From a virus: a stretch of 39,841 nucleotides of DNA. This document shows, in pieces, positions 2,325 to 30,992 of the stretch (position 1 is its first letter; every line of letters begins with the position of its first letter). The translations under genes were made by a program, and so were the position numbers. The notes beneath the pieces were generated by a model. That model was not told where the DNA came from and searched no databases. It saw only the letters and a list, made by a program, of their open reading frames with translations. The DNA lies in IMG/VR virus record IMGVR_UViG_3300026075_000020, positions 1 to 39,841 of that record; one strand, given 5' to 3'.

Positions 2325-2341
2325 CACCTCAGCATGAGGTG
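2325..2341 (+). promoter_or_regulatory. Hairpin covering the capsid gene start
   Basis: CACCTCA (2325-2331) and TGAGGTG (2335-2341) form a perfect seven-base-pair stem with a three-base loop, extendable by two G-T pairs. The 3' arm contains the only purine-rich Shine-Dalgarno-like bases (GAGG) and the first base of the GTG start at 2341. No other ribosome-binding sequence is seen at normal distance. Translational control is an inference. Confidence 0.4.
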
Positions 2342-4254
2342 TGCAGAACCGTGCGTGGTCGACGCTGGACGTCAAAGCCGTAGACCTCGAACAGCGCATC
2401 GTAGAAGGTATTGCCAGCACGCCGTCTCCTGACCGGGGCGGGGATGTCATGGAGCCGTCCGGCGCGCAGTTTGTACTGCCGATTCCGTTTCTCTGGTTCC
2501 ACGACGATCAGAACCCCATCGGTGAAGTGTTCGCGGCGGATGTGCGTCCTGACGGGATCTACATCAAGGCCCGCGTCTCGAAAGTCAACGCACCGGGCCG
2601 GCTGAAGAATCTCGTGGATGACGCCTGGGCTGCGTTCACGGCGAAGCCTCCGCTCGTGCGGGGTCTCAGCATCGGCTGGAAAGAGCTCGAATCGGCGCCG
2701 ATGCCGGGGACGAAGTTTACCCGTGTGCTCAAGTGGATCTGGGGCGAGCTCTCGGCCGTCACGGTCCCGATGAACACGGACGCCACGATCCTCTCTGTCA
2801 AATCTATCGATCTGGCCGCGTCAGGCCTCCATGCACCCGGCGATACGGGACAACCCCTTCAGGTGCGTGCAAAGGGCACGCGAGCTATGACATTCCAAGA
2901 ACAGATTGCAGGCCTCGAGGCCAAGCGTGCGGCCGATCTCGCCGCGATGACCACGATTCAGACGAAAGCCTCGGACGACGGCAACACCAAGGACGCCGAG
3001 CAGAAGGAAGAGTTCACCCGGCTGAAACTCGAGATCAAGAGCATCGACGAAGAGCTGGTCGATCTCCGGGACATGGAGAAGTTGGCGGTGGTCAAGGCCA
3101 CGCCGATCATCAACGCCACCGACCAGACGAAAGCCAGCGAGCTCCGCGGCGGGCTGCTCCCGCGGGTGACGGTGACGCCGAATGTGCCGAAGGGCACGTC
3201 GTTCACGCGCATGTGCATGGCGATGGCGGCCGGCAAGGGCGATTCCTACCAGACGCTGCAGTACGCGAAGCAGTGGAAGGATTCGACGCCCGAGGTCGAG
3301 CAGATGGTCGAGCACATGTGGCGCTCCAAGGCCGCGGTGGCGGCTGGCACGACCACCGATTCGACCTGGGCGGGACCGCTCGTGGTCACGCAGCCGCTGA
3401 ACGAGTTCCTGGACATGCTCCGGCCACGGACCCTCCTGGGCCGCATTCCGGGGCTGCGTCGGGTGCCGTTCAACGTCTCGGTCCCGACGCAGACGACCGG
3501 TGGCACCTACGGATGGGTGGGCCAGAACAAGCCGAAGCCGGTCACGAAGGCGGATTACGCCACGGTGACGGTGCCGTTTGCGAAGGCGGCCGGCATCATC
3601 GTGCTCTCGGAAGAACTGGTCATGCTCTCGACGCCCTCCGCGGAAAACCTGGTCCGCGAGGAAATGATCGCCGGGATGTCCACGTTCCTCGATCAGCAGT
3701 TCAACGATCCGGCGGTTACGGCGGTGGCGAACGTCAACCCCGCGGCGATCACGGTGGGTGCGTCCACCGCGGCGGCCAGCGGTGTCACGGCGGCGGCGGC
3801 GAAGGCCGACATCGCGGCGTCCATTGCCGTGTTCACGGCGGCGAACGTGCCGTTGGCGGATTCGGTGTGGCTGATGAGCGACAGCAACGCCTTCGGTCTC
3901 AGCATCTCGCTGAACGCCTTGGGCCAGCCGTTGTTCCCCGGCATGACGGCACAGGGCGGGACGCTCTTCGGCATGCCGGTCATCGTCAGCAACAACGTCA
4001 GCACGCGAGTCATCCTGCTCCATGCGCCATCGATCCTCTACGCGGATGAGGGTGGCGTGCGTGTGGATGTCAGCCGTGAAGCCTCGGTCCAGATGGACTC
4101 GGCCCCCACGGACACCGTGGATGCGACCACGGTCTACATCTCGCTGTGGCAGCGGAACCTGGTCGGCTTGAAGGCCGAGCGGTTCGTCACCTGGATCAGG
4201 GCGCGCACGGCGGCGGTGCGGTACATCACGGCGGCGGCCTACGTCGGTTCGTAG
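2341..4254 (+). CDS. Fused prohead protease / HK97-type major capsid protein
   Basis: A 637-residue fusion. Residues 1-150 are a U35-type prohead protease: GIASTPSPDRGGD at 23-35, a probable catalytic His54 (WFHDDQN), Ser110 (RGLSIGW) and the ELSAVTVPMNTDA block at 136-148. Residues 183-270 are a charged coiled coil like the delta (scaffold) domain. Residues about 285-637 are the capsid fold, with the 'VPTQTTGGTYGWVGQ...KP' E-loop region and 'LSEEL'. The GTG at 2341 is the first possible start, since TGA lies just upstream in frame. An in-frame ATG at 2887 (residue 183), preceded by AAAGGG, could make a separate capsid precursor. Most phages encode the two parts as separate genes. Confidence 0.92.
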   Translation: MQNRAWSTLDVKAVDLEQRIVEGIASTPSPDRGGDVMEPSGAQFVLPIPFLWFHDDQNPIGEVFAADVRPDGIYIKARVSKVNAPGRLKNLVDDAWAAFTAKPPLVRGLSIGWKELESAPMPGTKFTRVLKWIWGELSAVTVPMNTDATILSVKSIDLAASGLHAPGDTGQPLQVRAKGTRAMTFQEQIAGLEAKRAADLAAMTTIQTKASDDGNTKDAEQKEEFTRLKLEIKSIDEELVDLRDMEKLAVVKATPIINATDQTKASELRGGLLPRVTVTPNVPKGTSFTRMCMAMAAGKGDSYQTLQYAKQWKDSTPEVEQMVEHMWRSKAAVAAGTTTDSTWAGPLVVTQPLNEFLDMLRPRTLLGRIPGLRRVPFNVSVPTQTTGGTYGWVGQNKPKPVTKADYATVTVPFAKAAGIIVLSEELVMLSTPSAENLVREEMIAGMSTFLDQQFNDPAVTAVANVNPAAITVGASTAAASGVTAAAAKADIAASIAVFTAANVPLADSVWLMSDSNAFGLSISLNALGQPLFPGMTAQGGTLFGMPVIVSNNVSTRVILLHAPSILYADEGGVRVDVSREASVQMDSAPTDTVDATTVYISLWQRNLVGLKAERFVTWIRARTAAVRYITAAAYVGS

Positions 4255-4257
4255 ACC

Positions 4258-4872
4258 ATGCGTCTAGCGATTGGGGGGCCGACACGGGACACCGTGCCGG
4301 CCGCCTTCGCGGTTGATGTCGCACAGCTCTACGCCTACACACGCGAGCGTGGGCCGTGGGGCCAGAACGTGACGGTCGGGTTTGTGGCGTCCACGTATAT
4401 CCACGTCGGGCGCGAATGGTTTTTGGAAGCGGCGATCAAGCAAGGCGCGACCCATCTGCTCTGGTTGGACACCGACATGAGCGTCCCCAGAGAGGCAGCG
4501 GTCTTACTGGCGATGCACGAACAGCCCATCGTGGCGTGCAATTACCGCGTGCGTCAGTCCTCGGGCTTGTTCACGGCCTACCGTGACGGCGAGCGGGTTC
4601 AGACCACGGAGACATCGACAGGCTTGGAAGCCGTCGAGTACGTCGGCATGGGCTGCGTGTTGATGCGGGCGGATGTCGTGGCGGGTCTCGGGCGTCCGTG
4701 GTTTCGGCATGGGCTGAACGAGTTCGGCGGGGATGTCGGGGAAGACGTGATGTTCTGCCGCGGACTCGGGCACGCTGGCTACACGATTTACATCGATCAT
4801 GACCTCTCGAAACAGGTGGGACATATTGGGCAAACCACGTATCGAACCTGCGATCCCGTCGTCCCTGTCTGA
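4258..4872 (+). CDS. Glycosyltransferase, GT-A type
   Basis: A 204-residue protein with the hallmarks of GT-A sugar transferases. A metal/nucleotide-sugar-binding DxD motif lies in HLLWLDTDMSVP (about residues 66-77). A late acidic block (GEDVMFCRGLGHAGY) follows and a final histidine sits in QVGHIG, as in glycosyltransferases that process surface glycans. It starts four bases after the capsid stop, inside the virion operon, and is followed by a methyltransferase. This suggests it decorates the capsid or another virion protein, possibly with a methylated sugar. The alternative is modification of a host glycan. Confidence 0.75.
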   Translation: MRLAIGGPTRDTVPAAFAVDVAQLYAYTRERGPWGQNVTVGFVASTYIHVGREWFLEAAIKQGATHLLWLDTDMSVPREAAVLLAMHEQPIVACNYRVRQSSGLFTAYRDGERVQTTETSTGLEAVEYVGMGCVLMRADVVAGLGRPWFRHGLNEFGGDVGEDVMFCRGLGHAGYTIYIDHDLSKQVGHIGQTTYRTCDPVVPV

Positions 4873-5008
4873 CGAGATTGTGGAGTTGAAGCCGCCGGTG
4901 GACTCAGGGTTCAGCGGCACGGCGTTGCTGCACAAGACGGACCAGGCGGCGTTGATTGCGGATCTGCTGAGGCGTGGCTATACCGATGTCACCCGCCGTC
5001 GCGCCTGA
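4799..5008 (+). CDS. Small hypothetical protein in the capsid-modification cassette
   Basis: A reading frame of up to 69 codons bridging the glycosyltransferase and the methyltransferase. The first ATG lies inside the preceding gene. GTG codons at 4877 and 4898 and a TTG at 4826 are alternative starts, so the true N-terminus is uncertain. The downstream part (from IVELKPPVD to LLRRGYTDV) looks like real protein, with a helical end. It overlaps the next gene. No function recognised. Without it, the stretch 4873-4985 would be empty, which is unusual in this tightly packed operon. Confidence 0.5.
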   Translation: MTSRNRWDILGKPRIEPAIPSSLSDEIVELKPPVDSGFSGTALLHKTDQAALIADLLRRGYTDVTRRRA

Positions 5009-5576
5009 GTCCCAAACAGTTCCGGGCTGGTTCCATCACGGCCCGAAGATCCTCGAGCTGCTCGAGCAGCACCGCCCGAAGGTGTGCGTGGAGCTCGGGA
5101 CGTGGCTCGGGGCGTCTGCGATTCCGGTGGCGCGGTCGATTCGTCGGTGGGGCGGGACGCTGACGTGTGTGGATACGTGGGGCGGCGACATCCACACCAC
5201 GACGGCGAAGTCTCCGTGGATGCTGGTGAGTTGTGCCAGGAACATCATCGAGGCGGGTGTCGCGGCGAACGTCCGATTGATTCCGACCACCACGCGAGAA
5301 GCCGCAGCAGCCTGGAATCATCCGATTGATTGGCTCTACGTCGATGCCGACCACAGTTACGAGGCGTGCTGGGAAGACTTGGCGGCATGGGTGCCGTATG
5401 TGCGTCCAGGCGGTGTCATTCTCGGGGACGACTACGACAACCCGCTCTTCCCAGGTGTACGGCAGGCCTGGGAACAGTTCGCAGAGACATCTGGGTTGAC
5501 GCTGACGCGGTATCAGTCCTCGCCAGCGCATCCCGAAGGTATTCAGTTGGTGTACGGCGTGAAGGGGGAGTCATGA
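4986..5576 (+). CDS. SAM-dependent methyltransferase (class I, Methyltransf_24-like)
   Basis: About 196 residues forming a Rossmann-type methyltransferase. The SAM-binding loop is CVELGTWLGASAI near the N-terminus, TCVDTWGGD carries the acidic ribose-binding end of strand 2, and IDWLYVDADHSYEAC plus PGGVILGDDYD match the metal-site and strand 4-5 motifs of the family-24 group. That group includes O-methyltransferases acting on sugars. ATG 4986 was chosen; a GTG at 4974 is in frame. It sits behind the GT-A gene, so a plausible substrate is the sugar that enzyme attaches. Ends with ATGA overlap into the next gene. Confidence 0.78.
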   Translation: MSPAVAPESQTVPGWFHHGPKILELLEQHRPKVCVELGTWLGASAIPVARSIRRWGGTLTCVDTWGGDIHTTTAKSPWMLVSCARNIIEAGVAANVRLIPTTTREAAAAWNHPIDWLYVDADHSYEACWEDLAAWVPYVRPGGVILGDDYDNPLFPGVRQAWEQFAETSGLTLTRYQSSPAHPEGIQLVYGVKGES

Positions 5577-5785
5577 GCGAGACGGTGACGGTGACGGCGT
5601 TGAAGTTCCACACACATCAGGGCGCGGCCTACGTCGAAGGCGAATCCTACGACGTCGCGGTGGAAGACGTCGATAACCTCGTGGCGCAGGGGATGGTCGG
5701 GAGGCCTGACGCTCCGCCGGTCGAACCGAAGGCCTCGCAGCCAGTGGATGTGATGACCACGGCCGACTTCACGAAGCCCGCGTAG
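5573..5785 (+). CDS. Small hypothetical virion-operon protein
   Basis: A 70-residue acidic protein with ATG overlapping the methyltransferase stop and a good ribosome-binding site (GGGGGAG at 5563-5569). The first half (FHTHQGAAYVEGESYDVAVEDVDNLVAQGMV) resembles short beta-rich proteins found near phage portal and capsid genes. The C-terminal 25 residues are Pro/Ala-rich and probably disordered. Its stop directly abuts the portal start. It may be a head-associated accessory; the sequence does not identify it. Confidence 0.65.
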   Translation: MSETVTVTALKFHTHQGAAYVEGESYDVAVEDVDNLVAQGMVGRPDAPPVEPKASQPVDVMTTADFTKPA

Positions 5786-7153
5786 ATGCAGATCGGGCCG
5801 TTCACGATCGGGCGCACCAAGGCGCTGCCCACCCTGCGGGGGTTGAGCTCGCTCAGCTCTGGTGGCTGGGGCTGGTGGCCCATCATCCGCGAGAGTTTCA
5901 CGGGGGCGTGGCAGAACAACGTCGAAGTCCAGGCCAGTACCGCGCTGACCTATTCGGCGGTGTTCGCGTGCGTGACGTTGATTGCCGCGGATGTGGGCAA
6001 GGTCTGTTTGCGACTCGTGCAAGTCGATGCGAACGGCATCTGGACCGAGACGGAATCACCGTCGTTTTCTCCGGTGCTCCGGAAGCCGAACCGCTATCAG
6101 CACATCGTCAAGTTTATCGAGCAGTGGATCGTCTCCAAGCTGATTCACGGCAATACCTACGTCTTGAAGCAGCGCGATCAGCGCGGGATTGTGACGGCGC
6201 TGTATGTCCTCGATCCGACACGCGTGACACCGCTCGTGGCGAACGACGGCAGCGTGTATTACGAGTTGAAGCGGGATGATCTTTCAGGACAAACCCTGGA
6301 ATCGATTACCGTCCCGGCCAGCGAAGTCATCCACGACCTGATGATTCCGCTGTATCACCCGTTGATTGGGGTCTCTCCGATTTACGCCTGTGGGATCGCC
6401 GCGCAGCAAGGGCTGTCGATTCAGAACAACTCCAACAAGCTGTTCAGCAATGGGTCCATGCCGGGAGGCGTGCTGACGGCTCCGGGGGCGATCTCTGACG
6501 AGACGGCGCAACGGCTCAAGGCGTACTGGGATGAGAACTACCAGGGCGATAACGTCGGCAAGGTCGCCGTGCTCGGAGATGGTCTGAAGTACGACCAGAT
6601 GAGCATGAACGCCGTCGACTCGCAACTGATCGAGCAGTTGAAGTGGACCGGCGAGACCGTCTGTTCCGCGTTTCATGTCCCGGCGTACATGGTCGGTATT
6701 GGCCCTCCGCCACCTTACGCGAACATCGAACCACTGGTGCAGCAGTACTACAGCCAGTGTCTCCAGAGCCTCTTCGTGAACATGGAGAAGTGCCTGGACG
6801 AAGGGCTGGAACTGCCGAAGCCGTATGGGACGGAGTTCGATCCAGACGATCTGATCTGGATGAACACCGAGTCTCGGACGAAGGCGTTGCAGGACTCGAT
6901 CGGCTCGGGCGGGCTGTCCCCGGATGAAGCCCGCAAGAAGTTCATGGGTCTCGGCCCGGTGGCGGGTGGGAACACACCCTATCTCCAGCAACAGTACTGG
7001 CCGCTGAAGCAGTTGGCCGAGCGAGAGACCCCCGGAGTACCCGAAGCACCAGGCGAGATTCCGCCACAGCTTGCGCCGGCTGAAGACGAGGAAGACGTGA
7101 TGGACATGGCGGCCAGTTTCGCTGGGCTGTTGCGGAAGGAGTTGGCTGCGTGA
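5786..7153 (+). CDS. Phage portal protein (HK97 family)
   Basis: A 455-residue protein of the size and layout of HK97-type portals, which form the 12-mer DNA gate at one capsid vertex. Typical elements are the N-terminal SALTYSAVFACVTLIAADV-like helix, the KPNRYQHIVKFIEQWI block, GNTYVLKQRDQRG with 'LYVLDPTRVTP', the 'ISDETAQRLKAYWDENYQG' stem region and the 'FHVPAYMVG' clip segment. The C-terminal 50 residues are Pro/Glu-rich and then helical. It begins directly after the preceding stop and ends in a GTGA overlap with the collagen-like gene. It lies after, not before, the capsid gene, which is the reverse of the usual portal-protease-capsid order. Confidence 0.93.
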   Translation: MQIGPFTIGRTKALPTLRGLSSLSSGGWGWWPIIRESFTGAWQNNVEVQASTALTYSAVFACVTLIAADVGKVCLRLVQVDANGIWTETESPSFSPVLRKPNRYQHIVKFIEQWIVSKLIHGNTYVLKQRDQRGIVTALYVLDPTRVTPLVANDGSVYYELKRDDLSGQTLESITVPASEVIHDLMIPLYHPLIGVSPIYACGIAAQQGLSIQNNSNKLFSNGSMPGGVLTAPGAISDETAQRLKAYWDENYQGDNVGKVAVLGDGLKYDQMSMNAVDSQLIEQLKWTGETVCSAFHVPAYMVGIGPPPPYANIEPLVQQYYSQCLQSLFVNMEKCLDEGLELPKPYGTEFDPDDLIWMNTESRTKALQDSIGSGGLSPDEARKKFMGLGPVAGGNTPYLQQQYWPLKQLAERETPGVPEAPGEIPPQLAPAEDEEDVMDMAASFAGLLRKELAA

Positions 7154-7752
7154 CCGAGAAGGATCTTGCCATTCTGGCGCAGACGATTGCGCCGATCGTG
7201 CGCGAAGCCGTGGCGACCGCCGTCCATGACGCAGAGACCCGGTTGGCCGTAGCGGAAGCGCAACTCAAAGCCATTGGAGACATCCGCGATCGGGTGGTGG
7301 TGATGGAGACCAAGGCGGCGTTACCGGCCATTCTCCAGACCGCTGGACCCACGGAAGCGGATGTGGAGCTCTCCGTCAAGGACGCCATAGAACCGATCAA
7401 GGCGGCGCTGGCGGCGGCACAGGAGCGGATCGCCATCCTCGAGACGCGACAGCCGGTGCCAGGCCCAGCGGGCAAGGACGGGGCGCCAGGGCTGGACGGG
7501 AAAGACGGCGCACCCGGGCGAGATGGACTCGCGGGCATGGATTACAAGGGCGTGTTTGAAGAGGGCGCGAGCTACGAGCGCGGGCATCTCGTGACGTGGG
7601 GGGGATCGGGCTGGCACTGCAACGAGCCGACGACCACGAAACCGGGTGAAGGCTCGAAAGCCTGGACGCTCATGGTCAAGCGCGGACGGGACGGTAAAGA
7701 CGGCCGGGACGCTGAGGTGGCGCCGGTAGTCTCGCTCGGGAGCCGCAAGTAA
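7150..7752 (+). CDS. Collagen-like protein with carbohydrate-binding-like domain
   Basis: A 200-residue, three-part protein. Residues 1-100 are predicted helical, with heptad-like Ala/Leu spacing. Residues 105-131 are nine Gly-X-Y triplets (GPA GKD GAP GLD...), able to form a collagen triple helix. Residues 132-178 (YKGVFEEGASYERGHLVTW...) resemble small chitin/cellulose-binding modules of the CBM5/12 type, followed by three more triplets. The GTG start overlaps the portal stop (GTGA). Collagen repeats are common in phage fibres, but one coded between portal and connector suggests a neck or head fibre that binds a host or environmental polysaccharide. Confidence 0.75.
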   Translation: MTEKDLAILAQTIAPIVREAVATAVHDAETRLAVAEAQLKAIGDIRDRVVVMETKAALPAILQTAGPTEADVELSVKDAIEPIKAALAAAQERIAILETRQPVPGPAGKDGAPGLDGKDGAPGRDGLAGMDYKGVFEEGASYERGHLVTWGGSGWHCNEPTTTKPGEGSKAWTLMVKRGRDGKDGRDAEVAPVVSLGSRK

Positions 7753-8273
7753 TGGCTTCGCTCGTCACGCTCGAGGACGCCAAGACGCATCTGCGGGTGG
7801 CGCAGTCGTTCACCGACAACGATCTGGACATCCAGCTCAAGGCGGAATTGGCGAGCGTGGTGATTCTCGACTATCTCAAGTCGCGGGCCAACGTGGTGGC
7901 GACGATCGATGAGTCCTCGGTGGCGGTGGCCTCGGTCATCACCACGGAAGCGGCGCACGGGTTCTCAACCGGGCAGACGGCCGTGATTGTCGGCCATGAG
8001 GACAGCACGCCCGACATCAACGGCTCGTACGTGGTCACGGTGATCGACAGCACGAGCTTTTCAATTCCCGAGACGGTTACCGTGGCCGGCACCGGTGGCA
8101 CGGCGACCGTGGCGTGGACGGCTGGCACGGTGCCGGGACAGGTCCAGGCGGCGGTGTTGTTGCTCCTGAGCCATCTCTACGAGAACCGCGGCGAAGAGAT
8201 GAAGACCGATGACGCGTTGTGGCTGGCGATTGGCCGGCTGTTGATGCGGTCGCGTGATCCGGCGTTCGCGTGA
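7752..8273 (+). CDS. Head-tail connector (gp6-like) with an inserted beta domain
   Basis: A 173-residue protein. The two ends fit the head-tail connector family that rings the portal: LVTLEDAKTHLRVAQSFTDND at the N-terminus and the helix VQAAVLLLLSHLYENRGE at residues 131-148. Residues about 52-122 form a separate beta-rich insert (AAHGFSTGQTAVIVG...NGSYVVTVIDSTSFSI) like the small FCCH-type modules often embedded in virion proteins. The family usually has about 100 residues, so the insert explains the extra length. One-base overlap with the previous stop. Confidence 0.8.
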   Translation: MASLVTLEDAKTHLRVAQSFTDNDLDIQLKAELASVVILDYLKSRANVVATIDESSVAVASVITTEAAHGFSTGQTAVIVGHEDSTPDINGSYVVTVIDSTSFSIPETVTVAGTGGTATVAWTAGTVPGQVQAAVLLLLSHLYENRGEEMKTDDALWLAIGRLLMRSRDPAFA

Positions 8274-8614
8274 TGAACATCGGCGCCTTGCGGCATCGGG
8301 TGACGCTCTTGACCCCAGGGACACCGATTCCGGACGGGGATGGGGGCTATACGGAGACGTGGACCACGCTCGGGTCACGGGTGCCGGCGGCCGTGGAACC
8401 GGCCACGGCACGGTCGCTCGAGCGGATTGCGGCGAATACGGTCACGTCGACGGCCAGTCATCTGGTGACGCTGCGGTATCTCTCGGGAGTCACGACGAAG
8501 ACGCGGCTGACGTTTCACGACACGACGGATCGGACGTTCTCGGTGACGGGCACGCATGACGAAGAAGAACGCCACGAGTCGCTGGTGTTGGAATGCACGG
8601 AGGACGTGCCGTGA
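8273..8614 (+). CDS. Head closure / head-tail adaptor protein
   Basis: A 113-residue protein with the pattern of the SPP1 gp16/HK97 gp7-like family that plugs the filled head: GALRHRVTLLTP at the N-terminus, a YTETWTTLGSRVPAAVEP strand block, and the ERIAANT...HLVTLRYLSGVTTKTRL core. ATG 8273 overlaps the connector stop by one base; a GTG one codon earlier is in frame. The gene order connector, closure, gp10, terminator is the standard neck order. Confidence 0.85.
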   Translation: MNIGALRHRVTLLTPGTPIPDGDGGYTETWTTLGSRVPAAVEPATARSLERIAANTVTSTASHLVTLRYLSGVTTKTRLTFHDTTDRTFSVTGTHDEEERHESLVLECTEDVP

Positions 8615-9027
8615 GTAGTCGTCTGGTGTTCGATGGTCTGGCAGAGCTCCGGGAACAGCTCCGGAACTTGCCGTCTGACCTGACGGCCGAGGCGACTCAC
8701 GAAGTGGAAGGCGCCGCGAACGGGGCCGCGGCGGAGATCAAGCGGGCCTATCCGGTGCGAACGGGCAATCTGCGGGACGGCGTGATTGTCACGCATGTGA
8801 ACCAGGGGAAGTACGCTGCGGGCGCCCTGGTGAAGAACACGTCCAAGCATGCGTTTATTTTCGAGAACGGGACGCAGACGCGGCACAACGACCTCGGCGC
8901 GAATCGAGGCGCGATGCCTCCGGGCAACGTGTTCATCCCGGCGGCGATCCGGGCACGGCGTCTGATGTACGAAAAGCTCAAGGCCATCGTGGCGCGGGCA
9001 GGCTTCACCGTGAGCGGCGATGTCTGA
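8611..9027 (+). CDS. HK97 gp10-like neck/tail component
   Basis: A 138-residue protein with family features: GLAELREQLRNLPSDL at the start, then GAAAEIKRAYPVRTGNLRDGV (the conserved 'P.rTG.Lr.si' motif), HAFIFENGTQTR and 'VFIPAA'. Such proteins join the head-closure ring to the tail. The GTG at 8611 is preferred over the ATG at 8593 because GGAGGA (8599-8604) lies six bases upstream of it and the GTG overlaps the previous stop by four bases, as for most genes here. Confidence 0.85.
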   Translation: MSSRLVFDGLAELREQLRNLPSDLTAEATHEVEGAANGAAAEIKRAYPVRTGNLRDGVIVTHVNQGKYAAGALVKNTSKHAFIFENGTQTRHNDLGANRGAMPPGNVFIPAAIRARRLMYEKLKAIVARAGFTVSGDV

Positions 9028-9442
9028 CAGTTCGGCAGTCGATGCCGCGGTCATTACCAGGCTCTTGAATGACGCCACGTTGGCCGCGCTGATGCCAGAC
9101 GGGGTGTGGTGGGACGTTGCGGCCTCGGGCAAGACGCGGTTCGTGATCGTCTCGCTGGTGATTCATTTCGATGAGGACCAGATGCCCGGCACGACGGTGT
9201 TCGAGGACGTGACGTATCTGGTCAAGGCCGTGGAGCTCTCGACGTCGAGCGCGAACATCCAGGCCGCGGCGGCACGGATCCAGGAGCTCTTGCACGGGGC
9301 GACGTTCTCGGTGACGGGCTACGGGCTGATGAGCAGCCAACGTGTCGAGCGGGTCAGGTTCACGGAAGTGTCCGACGACGACAAAGACCAGCGGTGGCAA
9401 CACCGCGGAGGCAGATACAAGGTGATGGTGGCGCCGGTATGA
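9020..9442 (+). CDS. Tail terminator / tail completion protein
   Basis: A 140-residue protein. The pattern AVITRLLNDATLAALMPDGVWWDVA followed by 'TRFVIVSLVIHFDED' and 'TYLVKAVELSTSSANIQAAAARIQELL' matches small tail-completion proteins (DUF3168-like/gpU-like), which cap the tail tube and dock it to the neck. It overlaps the gp10 gene by eight bases and ends in an ATGA overlap with a methyltransferase. In a standard phage the next gene would be the major tail protein. Here a modification cassette of 1.8 kb has been inserted. Confidence 0.8.
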   Translation: MSDSSAVDAAVITRLLNDATLAALMPDGVWWDVAASGKTRFVIVSLVIHFDEDQMPGTTVFEDVTYLVKAVELSTSSANIQAAAARIQELLHGATFSVTGYGLMSSQRVERVRFTEVSDDDKDQRWQHRGGRYKVMVAPV

Positions 9443-10071
9443 AGCGGGACGTCTTGCTGTACGGGCTGAGTCAGTCGCTCCCGGCTGCACAGTTGCTGCA
9501 ATGGGCACAGACGACCCCAGGCCTGCACGAGATCCCCTGCCCGGACTTCCATCGGCTTCAGTTGGAGCATTGGATCTGGTCCAACCGTGAGGCGTTGGGC
9601 ACGACCATTCTGGACGTCGGGGTCTATTACCCGCGGCGCTGGCTGGGGGATGGCTACGTCACGGTCGGAGAGCACGAGGAAGACACCAAGGGGGATCTGC
9701 TCGCGTTGCCGTTTCACGAGGACGCCTTCGACGGGATCATCCTGACGGAAGTGCTCGAGCACTGCGCCGATCCGATCCGAGCGGTGGCCGAAGTCCGGCG
9801 GGTGCTGAAGCCAGGCGGGTTGTTGCTGGTCACGTCCCCGTTTTTCTGGCCAACGCACGGGATCGAGGGCGAATACAAGGACTACTGGCGGTTTACCCGT
9901 CAGGGCTGGGAGTTATTGCTCCAGGCGTTCGCGGACGTCGAGATTGTGGCCTGTGGCTGGACGGATGAAGGCGCGGCGGCCTACGACTTCATGCGGCGGT
10001 TCGAGTGCCAAGGGTTCATGAGTCAGACGGAAGCCACGACGGGCTACCTCTGCACGGCACGGAAGCCATGA
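9439..10071 (+). CDS. SAM-dependent methyltransferase (type 11-like)
   Basis: A 210-residue enzyme of the class I methyltransferase fold. It shows TILDVGVYYPRRW (degenerate glycine loop, motif I), KGDLLALPFHEDAFDGIILT (motifs II-III), EVLEHCADPIRAVAEVRRVL and KPGGLLLVTSPFFWP (motif V), all typical of Methyltransf_11. The ATG overlaps the tail-terminator stop, and its own stop overlaps the next glycosyltransferase (ATGA). It is expected to methylate a small molecule or sugar rather than DNA, since no NPPY or SPPY catalytic motif is present. It likely acts together with the following glycosyltransferase. Confidence 0.82.
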   Translation: MKRDVLLYGLSQSLPAAQLLQWAQTTPGLHEIPCPDFHRLQLEHWIWSNREALGTTILDVGVYYPRRWLGDGYVTVGEHEEDTKGDLLALPFHEDAFDGIILTEVLEHCADPIRAVAEVRRVLKPGGLLLVTSPFFWPTHGIEGEYKDYWRFTRQGWELLLQAFADVEIVACGWTDEGAAAYDFMRRFECQGFMSQTEATTGYLCTARKP

Positions 10072-11210
10072 AGCTGTTGCTGTTGCATCCGGGGGCGAGT
10101 TGGGCCACGGCCGACGTGGCGATCGGGCTGCACTACGGGCTGAAGTATCACGGCGCACAGATCGTCAACTTCCGACTCGATCAGCGGATCACGTTTGCTC
10201 ACAAGACGCTCCATGTGATGTGGCGGCACAAGGCGAAGGTGGATCCGGACCTGCCGAAGCCGACGCGAGCGGACGTGATGTATCAGGCCGGCGTCGGCGC
10301 GCTCGAAATGGCGCTCAGGGAAAAGGTCGATGCGGTCGTCGTGGTCAGCGGGATGTTGCTGCACCCGGATGTCGTGATCCTGATGAAGCGAGCGGGCCTT
10401 CGTGTGGTGGTGCTCTTCACCGAGTCGCCGTACGACATGGAGAAAGAGCTCAAGTTCGCGGCGATGGTCGATGGCTGCTGGACGAATGAACGGACAGCCG
10501 TCGAGGCGTTCCAGAAGGTGAACCCGAACAGCGGGTACCTGCCGCACGCGTGGCATCCGGAGCGGCACGTCACCGAGCGCGACGATGACGATCAGGTCGA
10601 AGCGCATGACGTGGTGTTTGTCGGGACGGGATTCCACGAACGGGTGACGTGGTTCAACAGCATCGACTGGACCGGCATCGATCTGGGGCTGTACGGGAAT
10701 TGGAAAGGGCTCGGGCTCTCCAAGCAGTTGAAGAAGTGCCTGCGTGGTGATTGTCTGAGCAATGACAAGACGGCGGCGCTCTATCGGCGGGCGAAGGTTG
10801 GGTTGAATCTCTATCGGCAGTCGATGGGGTGGGGGAAAGGCGCTCCGCTTCTCACGGCTACCGCGGCGGAGTCCTTGAGCCCAAGAGCCTACGAGCTCGC
10901 GGCGTGTGGCGTGTTTCATTTGAGCAGTTACCGATCGGAAGTCACGGAAGTGTTCGGGGATCTCGTCCCGACGTTCACGACACCGACCGAAGCGGCGGCG
11001 TTGATTCGTCTCTGGCTGGGGGATCCAGCAGGACGGGCGCGCATTGCCGAACAGTTACCGGCCCGCGTGGCTGAGATGTCCTGGGTATCACGAGCAGCAA
11101 CGGTCCTCGGGGACTTGCAACTGCTCACGGGCGCACAGCCAGCACCTGACATCACCGCGGCGAGGTCTCACGACTTCGATGCCAGGTTACTCGGGGCCGC
11201 CGGAGGGTAA
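10068..11210 (+). CDS. Glycosyltransferase, GT-B type (CgeB / Glyco_trans_1_2-like)
   Basis: A 380-residue protein with two Rossmann-like halves. The N-terminal half has MKLLLLHPGASW and ADVMYQAGVGALEMALREK, then VVVVSGMLL. The C-terminal half has HDVVFVGTGFHERV and the diagnostic AYELAACGVFHLSSYRSE...FGD, which is the nucleotide-sugar-binding end of CgeB-like and family-4-like transferases. It follows the methyltransferase with ATGA overlap and lies just before the major tail gene. By position it could glycosylate the tail tube or neck. It is unrelated in fold to the GT-A enzyme at 4258. Confidence 0.8.
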   Translation: MKLLLLHPGASWATADVAIGLHYGLKYHGAQIVNFRLDQRITFAHKTLHVMWRHKAKVDPDLPKPTRADVMYQAGVGALEMALREKVDAVVVVSGMLLHPDVVILMKRAGLRVVVLFTESPYDMEKELKFAAMVDGCWTNERTAVEAFQKVNPNSGYLPHAWHPERHVTERDDDDQVEAHDVVFVGTGFHERVTWFNSIDWTGIDLGLYGNWKGLGLSKQLKKCLRGDCLSNDKTAALYRRAKVGLNLYRQSMGWGKGAPLLTATAAESLSPRAYELAACGVFHLSSYRSEVTEVFGDLVPTFTTPTEAAALIRLWLGDPAGRARIAEQLPARVAEMSWVSRAATVLGDLQLLTGAQPAPDITAARSHDFDARLLGAAGG

Positions 11211-11215
11211 CGCAC

Positions 11216-11614
11216 ATGTCAGTTTACGCAGGACGCAAGGGCATGGTCTACATGTCCACCACGGCAGCGGGCGCCGCCTCGGCGGTGCTCCATCTGACGC
11301 AGTGGACGCTCAACCAGACCACCGACAAGATCGAAGTCACGTCGTTCGGGGACGCGAACAAGACGTACGTGCAGGGGCTGAAAGACGTCCAGGGCACGTT
11401 CGCGGGGTTCTTCGATGACGCCGAAACGAAGCCGTTCACGGCGGCGGATTCGGTCGATGGCTGCAAGCTCTATCTCTACCCGTCCACCGACGCGCCGACC
11501 ATCTACTGGTATGGGCCGGCGTGGCTGGACGTCAGCGTGGACACCAGCGTCTCCGCGGCGATTTCCCTGTCGGGGAACTTCGCGGCGAATGGCGCGTGGG
11601 GCAAGAAGCCCTAG
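11216..11614 (+). CDS. Major tail tube protein
   Basis: A 132-residue, beta-rich protein. The patterns 'MYMSTTAAGA...LTQWTLNQTTDKIEVTSFGDANKTYVQGLKDVQGTFAGFFDD' and 'YLYPSTD...YWYGPAWLDVSVDTSVSAAISLSGNF' are characteristic of short major tail proteins of non-contractile phages. A strong ribosome-binding site (GGAGGG at 11202-11207, eight bases upstream) fits a highly expressed protein. It is followed by a small protein, the chaperones and the tape measure, the standard tail order. Possible substrate of the cassette just upstream. Confidence 0.85.
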   Translation: MSVYAGRKGMVYMSTTAAGAASAVLHLTQWTLNQTTDKIEVTSFGDANKTYVQGLKDVQGTFAGFFDDAETKPFTAADSVDGCKLYLYPSTDAPTIYWYGPAWLDVSVDTSVSAAISLSGNFAANGAWGKKP

Positions 11615-11617
11615 TCG

Positions 11618-11860
11618 ATGGTCACGATCACGGGCCAAGCAGCCGAGGTGCGGTGGGGCTACTACACCGCAGCGACTCTTGGCCCGTGGTCACTCGTGGA
11701 TGGGCAGCTCACCGCGATTGTGGTGGATGCCGACACCTATCGGGTCTCGCAGCACCCGTTGGTGTTCGAGGTCACGCGTGCGACAGGCGCATGGACGTGG
11801 CCCTTAACAAGCGTGCAGATTGCTGGGACGACGCTCACCGCGAGTCTCCAGCAGGAGTAA
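11618..11860 (+). CDS. Small beta-rich hypothetical tail-region protein
   Basis: An 80-residue protein with alternating hydrophobic/polar residues (VRWGYYTAATLGPWSL, TYRVSQHPLVFEVTRATGAW) that suggest a beta-sandwich. It lies between the major tail gene and the chaperone, with three bases after the previous stop and no clear ribosome-binding site, so coupling is likely. Phages sometimes carry a second, minor tail or tail-surface protein here. I do not recognise the family. Confidence 0.6.
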   Translation: MVTITGQAAEVRWGYYTAATLGPWSLVDGQLTAIVVDADTYRVSQHPLVFEVTRATGAWTWPLTSVQIAGTTLTASLQQE

Positions 11861-11867
11861 CCGACCG

Positions 11868-12374
11868 ATGTCGAGATCACGTTTCGTCAAGCCCGAAGTC
11901 ACTCGGCTGTATCTGGCCGACGTCCACAAGCGCGAACATCACGCCCTACTCGAGCGTACGGGTGCCGAACAGGCCACACCTGAACAGATTGCTGCGTCTG
12001 AGGCCAAGGTGGCCCAGGCCGTGGAAGACGCCGAGTTCATCGACGTCAAGCGCCGGCTGAACACCGGAGAACAACAGGATATGTTCGCCGTCATGGCGCC
12101 GTTCATGACGCCGAACCAGCCGTTGCAGTTGCAGTCCCGTCAGGTGATGACCGGAAAGGTCGTGGCGTACCTGATCGGCTGGTCGCTGACCGATGACGGC
12201 AAGCCAGTCAAGGTGAGTGCGTCCGCGATCAACAACCTCGACCCGGAGACGTTCCGCGAGATCCGCGAAGCGATCGAGTTCCACGAAGAGAGCGTCGAGA
12301 AGGAATTGGCGGTGGTAAAAAACGGCCAGGGTGGCGCGAGCGTGTCGACGCCACCCTCCGTATCTGTCGCTTGA
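11868..12374 (+). CDS. Tail assembly chaperone, G product
   Basis: A 168-residue protein in the position of lambda gpG, between the major tail and tape-measure genes. The start region SRSRFVKPEVTRLYLADVHK, the 'KRRLNTGEQQDMFAVMAP' block and the acidic helical end before the frameshift site fit this fast-evolving family, which coats the tape measure during tail polymerisation. Near its 3' end (12317-12323) lies a canonical A AAA AAC slippery heptamer in the correct phase. Most ribosomes would make this short form; a minority would shift to the T extension. ATG 11868 is chosen as the first start after the previous stop. Confidence 0.8.
   Translation: MSRSRFVKPEVTRLYLADVHKREHHALLERTGAEQATPEQIAASEAKVAQAVEDAEFIDVKRRLNTGEQQDMFAVMAPFMTPNQPLQLQSRQVMTGKVVAYLIGWSLTDDGKPVKVSASAINNLDPETFREIREAIEFHEESVEKELAVVKNGQGGASVSTPPSVSVA
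12317..12356 (+). promoter_or_regulatory. Programmed -1 frameshift signal (slippery site plus stem-loop)
   Basis: AAAAAAC at 12317-12323 is read as gtA AAA AAC in the G frame, the exact X XXY YYZ phase. Five bases later a perfect eight-base-pair stem starts: GGGTGGCG (12329-12336) pairs with CGCCACCC (12349-12356), loop 12 bases. This matches the known arrangement of tail-chaperone frameshift signals. Confidence 0.85.
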
Positions 12375-22051: not shown

Positions 22052-22543
22052 ATGGAACGAGACCTTAAGATTGACAGCCAAAATTGCCAGCTTCTCCCCC
22101 CACGCTTCTGGTCCAAGGTTCGCAAGACGCGTACCTGTTGGCTGTGGACTGGCGGCACGAGCGACGGGTACGGCATGTTCTGGTGGGAAGGCCGCACAGT
22201 AGCCGCGCACCGGCTGGCCTACCAGCAATTGTCGGGACCGATCCGTAACGACCTGGAGCTCGATCATCGGTGCCGGCGGCGTGCGTGCGTGCGTCCGGAC
22301 CATCTCCGCGTGGTCGATCACTGGACCAACGTCAGTGCTGGTGTGAACTTCACCGCGGTCAACGCGAAGAAGGTCTGCTGTCCAAAGGGTCATCAGTACT
22401 CCACGAAGAAACGCCTGGGAAAGGTCCAGCGGTACTGCCCCAAGTGCGAGTCCGACCGGATGAAGTTACGACGCGCGGCGGCGAGAATTGCGAGATGGGC
22501 GCTGCTTTGGGGGGAGTCCCCAGCCGAGCCGGCCACTAAGTAG
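22052..22543 (+). CDS. HNH endonuclease (HNH_3-type)
   Basis: A 163-residue protein with the plant-AP2/HNH_3 pattern: CWLWTGGTSDGYGMFWWEG, then AAHRLAY (His53), ELDHRCRRRACVRPDHLRVV (His72, Cys74, Cys79, His84) and a C-terminal zinc finger (CPKGH...CPKC). Such genes are typically free-standing homing endonucleases or nicking enzymes. It stands alone between the attachment site and integrase, has its own -10 box, and its 3' end overlaps the integrase end by 78 bases in convergent orientation. It is lower in GC at its start. Probably a mobile gene. Confidence 0.82.
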   Translation: MERDLKIDSQNCQLLPPRFWSKVRKTRTCWLWTGGTSDGYGMFWWEGRTVAAHRLAYQQLSGPIRNDLELDHRCRRRACVRPDHLRVVDHWTNVSAGVNFTAVNAKKVCCPKGHQYSTKKRLGKVQRYCPKCESDRMKLRRAAARIARWALLWGESPAEPATK

Positions 22544-23482
22544 CTGGCCGGTCTTCTTCAGGCGCGAGGCGATCATCCCGGTGTAGATCCTTGTTGTCTT
22601 CACGTCGGTGTGCCCGAACCAGTCCTTGATGTCTTCCCACTCCGCTGACGATTCTGCCAGCGTGATCCCGATGGTGTGCTTCAGATTGTAGACCCGCACA
22701 CCCTTCGGCCAGCCAGCCGCACGGACCGCCCGCACGAAGTCACTGCCATCGTACGCACCCCACGCCTGACTAACGATGAAGGCGCGGAAAGCGAACAACA
22801 TATCTTCGGTGAGGGCGACGGGTATCGGGTTCCCACCCTTGGCAGGACGCACCAGCCACAGCCGGCGGGACAGGCTGACGTCTCCCGGCAGGGCGCGTCG
22901 GAGCTGCGCGGGCCGCTGGCCGGTCGACGCCAGCACCATGAACCGCGCACGGGTTTTGGGATCGGTCAGGCGCTTGGCGACCTGGCGGATCTTGGCCGGC
23001 GAGACGTACCGAGGGTTGGCGGGCGGCTCCTCGAGCTTCTGGACGTCGTCGCAGGGGGTGTCGGCCTTCTTCCCGTCCAGCCGGTGAAAGAGTCCCCTGA
23101 GGGCTCTGACGCGGTGGTTGACCGTCTTGGGAGCGTATCCGTCCGACAGCCACTGTTCACGAGCCTCGAGCACCATCGGCCGGGTGATGTCCTCCCGGCG
23201 CTCTTCGCCATACAGCGCGGTCCAGGCGTCGAGCTCACAGGTGAGACTGCCGACGCTCGCCAGCGTCTTGACCGTCTCGAGCTCCAGGTAGGCGGCGACG
23301 TCGGCGGCGAGTGTGCCGCGGGTGTTCCGTTTCGGGCGCTTGCGGAGGGCGACTCGGGTTTCGTCCCGCCACGCCTGCATCTTTGTGGCGGGGGTATCGA
23401 AGGGGAAGCGGCGCTCGCGCTGGAAGCCGCGGACCTTCACGTAGGCGCGGTATCCGTATCTGTCCCGGCGAATCCCTTTCAT
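22466..23482 (-). CDS. int: Tyrosine-type site-specific integrase
   Basis: A 338-residue recombinase that joins attP to the host site. N-terminal residues 1-60 are a basic arm-binding region, residues 65-140 the SAM-like core-binding helices, and residues 160-310 the catalytic domain. Visible active-site residues: Arg190 (STGQRPAQ), Lys215 (VRPAKGG), His291 (FGHTDV) and the nucleophile Tyr300 (TRIYTG). The usual HxxRH box reads Y265-N-L-K268-H269, so the second arginine is replaced by lysine. The C-terminal tail is basic. The start overlaps the exported protein stop by four bases (ATGA). Confidence 0.93.
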   Translation of the reverse strand: MKGIRRDRYGYRAYVKVRGFQRERRFPFDTPATKMQAWRDETRVALRKRPKRNTRGTLAADVAAYLELETVKTLASVGSLTCELDAWTALYGEERREDITRPMVLEAREQWLSDGYAPKTVNHRVRALRGLFHRLDGKKADTPCDDVQKLEEPPANPRYVSPAKIRQVAKRLTDPKTRARFMVLASTGQRPAQLRRALPGDVSLSRRLWLVRPAKGGNPIPVALTEDMLFAFRAFIVSQAWGAYDGSDFVRAVRAAGWPKGVRVYNLKHTIGITLAESSAEWEDIKDWFGHTDVKTTRIYTGMIASRLKKTGQLLSGRLGWGLPPKQRPSRNSRRRAS

Positions 23483-26697: not shown

Positions 26698-26835
26698 ATG
26701 CCGTCCAACCGCACGGTGGAGGACGACCGCGAAGCGTTCGCGGCGAGCTTCGAGCAGGACGTGCTGCACGCGGCAGACGTGCTGGGCTGGGCGCACGTCA
26801 ACGCCATCATCGCAGACGCAAAGGCGAATCATTGA
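26698..26835 (+). CDS. Small acidic hypothetical protein
   Basis: A 45-residue protein from ATG 26698, chosen because GGAGGA (26682-26687) lies ten bases upstream. An in-frame ATG at 26644 would add 18 residues and overlap the previous gene by 14 bases. The core EDDREAFAASFEQDVLHAAD, VLGWAHVNAIIADAK looks like two helices. The stop overlaps the methyltransferase start (TGATG). Function unknown. Confidence 0.55.
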   Translation: MPSNRTVEDDREAFAASFEQDVLHAADVLGWAHVNAIIADAKANH

Positions 26836-27281
26836 TGGCTTGCGAGCGGCCAGAAGGGTGGAGCAGCGACAAGTGGGCCACGCCGGTCTATCTGGTCCGC
26901 GATCTGGAGGCGGAGTTCGGGCCGTTCGACTTGGACCCGTGCTGCGAGGAGCACACCGCGAAGGCGGCGACGTTTTACACCGAGGGCGGATTGGAGCGTC
27001 CGTGGTTTGGGCGCGTGTTCCTCAACCCGCCGTACAGCGACCCGCGTCCGTGGCTGGACAAGGCGATTGCGGCGAAGTCCGAGGGCTGCACGGTGGTTGC
27101 GTTGCTCCCGGCTTGCACAGACACGCGGTGGTTCCACGAGGCGGTCATCGGTCACGCCGAGGTGCGGTTTCTACGCGGTCGCGTGAAGTGGCTGGGGTGG
27201 GAAGGGACACCGATAGGGTCTCCTAAAAGCCCAACCATCATCGCTATCTATCACGGCAAGCGTGTAGGGGTTCCGGCATGA
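26835..27281 (+). CDS. DNA N6-adenine methyltransferase (phage Dam family)
   Basis: A 148-residue enzyme of the short phage Dam-type family. The catalytic motif NPPY is at residues 64-67 (VFLNPPYSDPRPW). The SAM-region motif FDLDPC is at 31-36 (LEAEFGPFDLDPCCEEHTAKA), and the start SSDKWATPVYLVRDLEAEFG is characteristic. It methylates adenine in a short site, protecting phage DNA or altering regulation. No cognate restriction gene is nearby. It overlaps its neighbours on both sides (TGATG and ATGA). Confidence 0.88.
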   Translation: MACERPEGWSSDKWATPVYLVRDLEAEFGPFDLDPCCEEHTAKAATFYTEGGLERPWFGRVFLNPPYSDPRPWLDKAIAAKSEGCTVVALLPACTDTRWFHEAVIGHAEVRFLRGRVKWLGWEGTPIGSPKSPTIIAIYHGKRVGVPA

Positions 27282-30101: not shown

Positions 30102-30992
30102 ATGTTGATTCGCGCCGACGCCAGACAGATCCCGCTCATCGACGGCTGCGTCCAGACCGTGGTGACGAGTCCTCCGTACTGGGGGCTGAGGGATTACGGC
30201 AACGGCGGGCAGATTGGGCTCGAGAAGACGCCGGAGGCGTTCGTGGCTTCACTGGTGGCGGTGTTCGCGGAGGTCTGGCGCGTGCTGAAGGACGACGGGA
30301 CGGTGTGGCTGAATTTGGGCGACAGCTACAGCGGCGGCAAGACGGGCAGGGCGGACGGTGGGCGGTCATCCGAGACGTTTACCGGCAACCCGTATCACGG
30401 CGAAGTGTCGCCCAGTCAGCGGGCCGTCCCTCTTGGTTATAAGGCGAAGGATCTAGTGGGCATCCCGTGGCGAGTCGCCTTCGCGTTGCAAGCGGCTGGA
30501 TGGTACCTCCGCGCGGACATCATCTGGTCGAAGCCGAACCCGATGCCGGAGAGCGTGACGGATCGGCCGACGAAGGCGCATGAGTACATCTTCCTGCTAT
30601 CAAAGCAGGAGCGGTACTACTACGACGCGGCGGCGGTTTCTGAAGTTGCTATACGTGCCGGGGACCAAAACAACGCGACGGAGCAACACAGTGAGTATGC
30701 GATGAGCCGCGTGATTACGGTTGGAGAGCGGCGCAACAAGCGCAGCGTCTGGCACATCGCCACGCAGCCCTATGCCGGGAGTCACTTCGCCACGTTCCCC
30801 GAAGCCCTAATCGAGCCGTGCATCCTCGCTGGCTCACGGCCGGGGGATCTCGTGTTCGACCCGTTCGTGGGCAGCGGGACAGTTGGGGCGGTGGCGGAAC
30901 GATTCGGACGCAGATGGGTGGGGACCGATTTGGGCTATCAGCATCTGGCGAAGAAGCGGACCCAGCAGCGCGGGCTTAGGCTGGGGGCGTGA
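30102..30992 (+). CDS. DNA methyltransferase, N4-cytosine/N6-adenine (beta-type order)
   Basis: A 296-residue enzyme of the N6_N4_Mtase family. The catalytic motif TSPPYW is at residues 22-27 and the SAM motif FDPFVGSGT at 252-260, the order of beta-class enzymes. 'LKDDGTVWLNLGDSY', 'LVGIPWRVAFALQAAGWYLR', 'IIWSKPNPMPESV' and 'THEYIFLLSKQERYYYD'-like blocks confirm it. SPPY is more frequent in N4-cytosine enzymes, but both activities occur. ATG 30102 is chosen because homology starts there and the upstream sequence is a structured leader. No restriction partner is present. It ends in a GTGA overlap. Confidence 0.9.
   Translation: MLIRADARQIPLIDGCVQTVVTSPPYWGLRDYGNGGQIGLEKTPEAFVASLVAVFAEVWRVLKDDGTVWLNLGDSYSGGKTGRADGGRSSETFTGNPYHGEVSPSQRAVPLGYKAKDLVGIPWRVAFALQAAGWYLRADIIWSKPNPMPESVTDRPTKAHEYIFLLSKQERYYYDAAAVSEVAIRAGDQNNATEQHSEYAMSRVITVGERRNKRSVWHIATQPYAGSHFATFPEALIEPCILAGSRPGDLVFDPFVGSGTVGAVAERFGRRWVGTDLGYQHLAKKRTQQRGLRLGA

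Follow-up and report, generated by a model that had tools for sequence, protein, structure and literature searches.

Glycosyltransferase cassettes beside the capsid and tail-tube genes of an uncultivated siphovirus, and their association with the neighboring virion genes

Two enzyme cassettes in a siphovirus late operon

The stretch of DNA analyzed here (hereafter the window) is the whole 39,841-nucleotide IMG/VR virus record IMGVR_UViG_3300026075_000020. Its late operon harbored a GT-A glycosyltransferase (GT) and a Methyltransf_24 methyltransferase after the protease-major capsid fusion, and a Methyltransf_11 methyltransferase and a GT-B glycosyltransferase before the major tail-tube gene (Table 1). 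All four genes, including the DTD motif of the GT-A, were present as a preliminary description had reported them, with intact open reading frames (ORFs). These ORFs are not chance occurrences, since they had strong homologues in dozens of contigs and median ratios of nonsynonymous to synonymous substitution rates (dN/dS) of about 0.09-0.18, indicating purifying selection (GT-A 0.09, Methyltransf_24 0.18, Methyltransf_11 0.09, GT-B 0.09). Overlaps of exactly four bases, previously ascribed to most junctions of the late operon, were found at only 6 of the 19 junctions examined.

No strong Pfam match was obtained for the GT-A protein. Its AlphaFold2 model, built from 21 relatives, had a predicted local distance difference test score (pLDDT) of 92, and the best structural matches were the GT domain of the lysyl hydroxylase LH3 (Z 18.5) and A197 of Sulfolobus turreted icosahedral virus (STIV; Z 18.3), followed by mimivirus R699, Mnn9 and COLGALT1. 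The motifs DTD (71-73), GED (161-163) and HDLSK (181-185), as well as H189, were invariant across 21 GT-A sequences. As modeled, this small protein is a GT-A fold carrying a DXD metal motif. A 113-base gap separated its gene from that of the Methyltransf_24 enzyme, for which the ATG at 4986 was the best start and the TylF Pfam match was sub-threshold. The short ORF between the two genes showed 49-76% identity among its 37 contigs, without family match, and is a possible small cassette partner. Many relatives also carried, between capsid and GT-A, a family of about 70 amino acids (aa) (L007:2131-2340 and 48 other gene calls) that was missing from the window and had no Pfam match.

On the tail side, the GT-B scored 63.3 bits against a Pfam cut-off of 25, which places it in the Glyco_trans_1_2 family, and its EX7E pair (E268/E276) was kept in 21 sequences. 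The tail-tube model (pLDDT 88) matched the monocin, R4C, gene-transfer-agent and lambda tail tubes. The Methyltransf_11 enzyme displayed an atypical motif I for S-adenosylmethionine (SAM) binding (ILDVGVYYPRR in place of GxGxG), and its Pfam match was confined to the C-terminal half of that domain. The two enzyme pairs had been described as of unrelated folds; this held for the GTs (GT-A versus GT-B) but not for the methyltransferases, which both exceeded the Pfam cut-off and are, by Pfam, both of the class I SAM type.

Table 1. Features of the window discussed in the text
Feature	Position	Strand	Basis or remark
Siphovirus late operon		+	39.8 kb virus record
Protease-major capsid fusion, presumed cassette 1 substrate	2341..4254	+	phrog_617 major head protein, E=9e-128
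Minimal GT-A glycosyltransferase, cassette 1 core	4258..4872	+	ATG start, 204 aa; AlphaFold2 model and invariant motifs
42-codon ORF	4880..5008	+	GTG start; between GT-A and Methyltransf_24; conservation in 37 contigs
Class I methyltransferase (Methyltransf_24), cassette 1 accessory	4986..5576	+	Pfam PF13578, E=1e-23
Class I methyltransferase (Methyltransf_11), cassette 2 accessory	9439..10071	+	ATG start; Pfam PF08241, E=6e-13
GT-B glycosyltransferase, cassette 2 core	10068..11210	+	ATG start; Glyco_trans_1_2, PF13524, E=3e-17
Major tail-tube protein, presumed cassette 2 substrate	11216..11614	+	phrog_1407; tube fold by model
Integrase	22466-23482	-	

Cassettes and virion genes across related contigs

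Relatives were collected in seven scans of viral contigs, the first six of which yielded 151 groups of loci defined by shared sequence. Among 50,697 phage records, megablast of window positions 3000-12000 gave zero matches and tblastn retrieved no relatives of the GT-B.

The GT-B and the tail tube formed a stable core, while the genes preceding the GT-B were exchanged among relatives; this is the new result of the comparison. A scan seeded with only the tail tube retrieved 34 contigs, and the GT-B adjoined the tail-tube gene in all 33 with upstream sequence. When scans were pooled, it was found in 70 of the 74 contigs with tail-tube relatives (the script gave 69, having mis-scored L189, where the GT-B lies just upstream of the tail tube). 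The four GT-B-free contigs (L005, L017, L084, L113) had tail tubes that were just 37-42% identical, and the tail-tube relatives in the known phages DSL-LC06 and CRP-406 also came without GT-B. Three of these contigs encoded a Thr/Ser/Gly-rich protein of about 166 aa directly before the tail tube (L017:11886-12389, L084:11862-12362, L113:10853-11347), possibly an alternative decoration protein. Many contigs with GT-B and tail tube carried head genes unrelated to those of the window.

The slot between tail terminator and GT-B was occupied by Methyltransf_11, other class I, TylF, FkbM or Methyltransf_24-type methyltransferases, by family 2 glycosyltransferases (GT2s), by radical SAM/SPASM or B12-type radical SAM enzymes, by a PseC-like DegT aminotransferase with a GNAT protein, or by a cytidylyltransferase. 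Accessory enzymes were counted 120 times upstream and 0 times downstream of the tail tube, a contrast that is biased and descriptive only, the families having been chosen from the upstream side. Similar enzyme sets were located near the connector (L072, L147, L180, L154) or by a different capsid (L054, L148). A block of four genes, encoding a GT2, a B12-type radical SAM enzyme and two GT-A-like proteins, preceded the GT-B in L042 (3149-6799) and recurred before the connector in L072 (1589-5116), which suggests block transfer. For the radical SAM/SPASM enzymes found just before the GT-B in a subset of relatives (L041:5925-6989, L161:3851-4915 and 13 other gene calls), the nearest NCBIfam models were maturases of cofactors and of ribosomally synthesized and post-translationally modified peptides, far under cut-off.

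Every contig with a capsid at least 58% identical to that of the window also had the capsid-side GT-A (54 of 54). A sharp capsid threshold for its presence (54/54 above 58%, 0/7 below 52%) was considered and dropped, a later scan having found the GT-A with capsids 43-50% identical. In podovirus-like phages, more distant GT-A relatives (36-43% identical) followed unrelated capsid genes with at most one small ORF in between; a relative in a Microcystis phage (35% identical) was similarly placed after the capsid gene. The Methyltransf_24 gene accompanied the GT-A in 40 of 40 cases when the latter was at least 62% identical, and in 2 of 12 below that value; a GT-A subclade (52-60%) followed the same capsid family without it. 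The Methyltransf_24 is therefore accessory and the GT-A core. Together with the exchange of the enzyme before the GT-B, this does not agree with enzyme pairs as fixed partners.

Directly upstream of Methyltransf_24, a GT-A was encoded in all 50 loci with room for one, either a GT-A of the capsid type or, in L040, L301, L302, L075 and L169, another GT2, and in two loci GT2 and Methyltransf_24 formed a single polypeptide (L075:3624-4739, L169:3783-4901). Judged by these arrangements, the METHYLTRANSFERASE belongs to the GT. An apparent Methyltransf_24/GT-B fusion in L169 was discarded: it arose from the way the ORF had been chosen, and the gene actually fused to Methyltransf_24 is the GT2.

Some contigs retained the capsid cassette without GT-B. 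Since the two cassettes assorted independently across contigs, their separate acquisition, as earlier proposed, is likely. The arrangement had been regarded as unusual; within its lineage, a large group of uncultivated phages, it is instead the rule.

Co-divergence of glycosyltransferases and neighboring virion proteins

Correlations (rho, Mantel test) were calculated between the pairwise distances that different proteins showed among the contigs. Distances of the GT-B followed those of the tail tube (rho 0.59, n=69, p=0.0005). For the gene right after the tail tube (g11618), rho was 0.24 against the GT-B and 0.32 against the tail tube, for gp10 it was 0.14 and 0.04, respectively, and the partial correlation of GT-B and tail tube given both was 0.51. 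Distances of the GT-A followed those of the capsid (rho 0.55, n=49, p=0.0005) but not those of the portal (rho 0.10, p=0.11) or of the tail tube (rho -0.17, n=18). Cross pairs (GT-A/tail tube, GT-B/capsid) comprised 13-18 contigs only. The co-variation of each cassette with its neighboring structural gene, which the preliminary description had proposed to look for in related phages, was thus found on both sides, and with the co-occurrence patterns among the roughly 150 contigs compared it bears out two separate GT/methyltransferase cassettes, each coupled to its own neighbor. Co-divergence of this kind supports, without proving, a pairing that goes beyond adjacency.

Tail-tube residues were also inspected as acceptors. 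Tyr88 was rejected: it occurred in 55 of 55 GT-B-bearing contigs but was equally present in the GT-free DSL-LC06 and CRP-406. Tyr86 occurred in 53 of 55 GT-B-bearing contigs versus 0 of 6 without GT-B, and may be, as a weak lead, an acceptor or docking site.

Proposed virion glycosylation and its alternatives

The sequences show which genes are present, their folds and catalytic motifs, purifying selection, co-occurrence, neighbor-specific co-divergence and the GT-methyltransferase fusion. It is reasonably probable that the two cassettes are modules for the glycosylation of virion proteins, each inherited together with the gene for its substrate, in which the GT is locked to the protein and the tailoring enzymes are swappable. 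During late expression, the soluble GT-A would use a host nucleotide-sugar to attach a sugar to the capsid protein, and the soluble GT-B would attach one to the tail-tube protein, while the adjoining methyltransferases, or in relatives extra GTs, radical-SAM enzymes and aminotransferase/acetyltransferase, would tailor that sugar. The GT would be locked to the protein because it reads it, and the tailoring enzymes would be exchangeable because they read the glycan. In the window, capsid and tail tube would each receive a sugar methylated by the partner enzyme, as had been suggested earlier. No genes for nucleotide-sugar synthesis were recognized among the window genes examined, and host donors would therefore be used. 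The replacement enzymes are sugar-pathway types (PseC-like DegT, GNAT, TylF, FkbM, GT2s, cytidylyltransferase) and support glycan tailoring. We infer, rather than observe, the transfer reactions, the acceptor residues, the placement of the methyl group on the sugar and any benefit, which might be a tuning of adsorption or a particle better protected against host receptors, decoys or defense.

Several points weigh against this reading. The contig set was seeded from the window, and its frequencies are not population estimates. The contigs lacking GT-B number four only. Joint recombination of neighbors could partly produce the co-divergence of adjacent genes, though other neighbors would then be expected to be affected too; the genes used for comparison, g11618 and gp10, are either short or noisy. 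Conservation singled out no acceptor residue with confidence, Tyr86 being Phe in the GT-B-bearing L183.

The GTs may instead modify other virion or assembly proteins than their strict neighbors, one or both decorating all of capsid, tube and minor proteins, much as a single cassette does in Corndog. The one cassette of cluster O phages, beside portal and protease, reportedly acts on the capsid as well as on the tail tube (PMC11600133, PMC4351075), and in some relatives (L072, L147, L180) the GT blocks lay near the connector, not near capsid or tube. This alternative nevertheless seems unlikely, given the neighbor-specific co-divergence (the GT-A tracks the capsid and not the tail tube, and for the GT-B it is the reverse, although on few cross pairs) and the retention of GT-B and tail tube with unrelated heads.

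An action on glycans of the host cell surface (receptor masking, seroconversion), with the operon placement as an accident of insertion, is distinctly improbable. Such action is common for phage GTs (gtr operons), and the integrase makes the window phage temperate. However, the hallmark of Gtr-type systems is a membrane-embedded GT with a flippase, and no such neighbor was seen. By hydropathy, no convincing transmembrane segment was detected in the four enzymes (a hydrophobic stretch at residue 87 of the GT-B could be a Rossmann strand), and all four look soluble. Late-operon position, tight coupling to capsid and tube sequences and the recurrence of the GT next to unrelated capsids also argue against it.

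That the GTs glycosylate virion proteins while the methyltransferases act on protein side chains or another target is very improbable: the acceptor is not fixed by Pfam class, and the GT-A subclade lacking Methyltransf_24 indicates that the sugar can do without this enzyme, but the GT2-Methyltransf_24 fusions, the constant partnership with a GT and an O-methyltransferase of TylF type (macrocin sugar) found at that same slot all point to a glycan target.

With separate modules for shell and tail, this group of phages would probably decorate the two separately with changeable sugars. It is about an even prospect that the large uncultivated group bears, within the structural operon, hypervariable glycan loci resembling those of O-antigens, in which a conserved initiating GT co-evolves with each major virion protein (capsid, tail tube) and tailoring sets are swapped, among them SPASM and B12 radical-SAM enzymes, PseC-like aminotransferase/acetyltransferase and a cytidylyltransferase; if so, every lineage would have its own sugar coat, on head and tail separately. 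What is known of virion glycosylation in phages comes mainly from a few mycobacteriophages, in which its effect on antibody recognition was the subject. Antibody evasion belongs to that mycobacteriophage work and has no visible relevance for a soil phage. The glycan machinery is conserved, selected and re-assorted in soil phages without obvious antibody pressure, and adsorption, decoys, surface receptors and environmental stability are candidate selective forces. The neighbor-specific co-divergence also provides testable enzyme-substrate pairs, each a small soluble GT with a proposed protein acceptor.

Other observations on the window and on annotation

Some phage enzymes labeled as DNA methyltransferases (phrog_2675, several actinophage records) may have glycans as their targets. 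In RefSeq, the relatives of the Methyltransf_24 enzyme from actinophages carry this label (NC_005885, NC_051592, NC_051590), while the GenBank versions of phiAsp2 and Patt name the enzyme an O-methyltransferase; the RefSeq label is likely a mis-annotation. The window itself encoded, apart from the cassettes, two DNA methyltransferases in its early region (Dam type, N6_N4_Mtase; 26835-27281 and 30102-30992). No tRNA genes were found in the window. The only close genome match was a 5.6 kb contig in a Propionibacteriaceae metagenome-assembled genome (L206), possibly mis-binned, and no host was assigned from it.

Comparison with known systems

The structural operon of Corndog-type phages contains a GT/O-methyltransferase set that is reported to act on capsid and tail tube (PMC11600133, PMC4351075, PMC12363180); for this modification in cluster O, PMC11600133 and PMC12363180 cite Freeman et al. 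2023. In cluster O, the genes for the O-methyltransferase and the GTs are placed between those for portal and protease (PMC4351075). The Corndog/cluster O cassette (gp35-38) resembles those of the window in combining an O-methyltransferase with glycosyltransferases within the virion structural operon, and its methyltransferase is of the TylF/Methyltransf_24 class (PF13578), as in the window. It differs in being a single cassette between portal and protease (seen in the cluster O relative L268, which stood in for Corndog itself in comparisons), whereas the window has two, with one GT tied to the capsid and the other to the tail tube. No sequence or profile relation was found between Corndog-type and window GTs (hhalign probability <2%). 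From its genes, the window would work like a Corndog-type cassette but lacks the GT homology that would make it a member of that type.

A197 of STIV is an essential protein that may glycosylate the major capsid protein (PMC10551542). Like the window enzyme, to whose model it is structurally closest but for LH3, it is a minimal single-domain GT-A of about 200 aa; it belongs, however, to an archaeal virus of a different kind, is 19% identical over the structural alignment and has an acceptor that is only presumed. To our knowledge, it has no methyltransferase partner.

A few genes past the major head gene, podovirus MW202801 carried radical SAM, GT, methyltransferase, NodB-like and GT genes, and Actinoplanes phage phiAsp2 a GT and an O-methyltransferase. 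Both differ from the window in that their capsid genes are annotated as other kinds and that no tail-tube cassette occurred in the stretches read. PAJU2-like phages have a homologous protease-capsid fusion, about 40-42% identical to that of the window (42% in Pseudomonas phage PAJU2), but PAJU2 has just two small ORFs between capsid and portal and no GT; the cassette is therefore not needed for the capsid fold. Virion glycosylation of this kind is already known from Corndog; what is new, and was observed in the relatives more than in the window, is the exchangeable tailoring set next to a conserved core of GT-B and tail tube.

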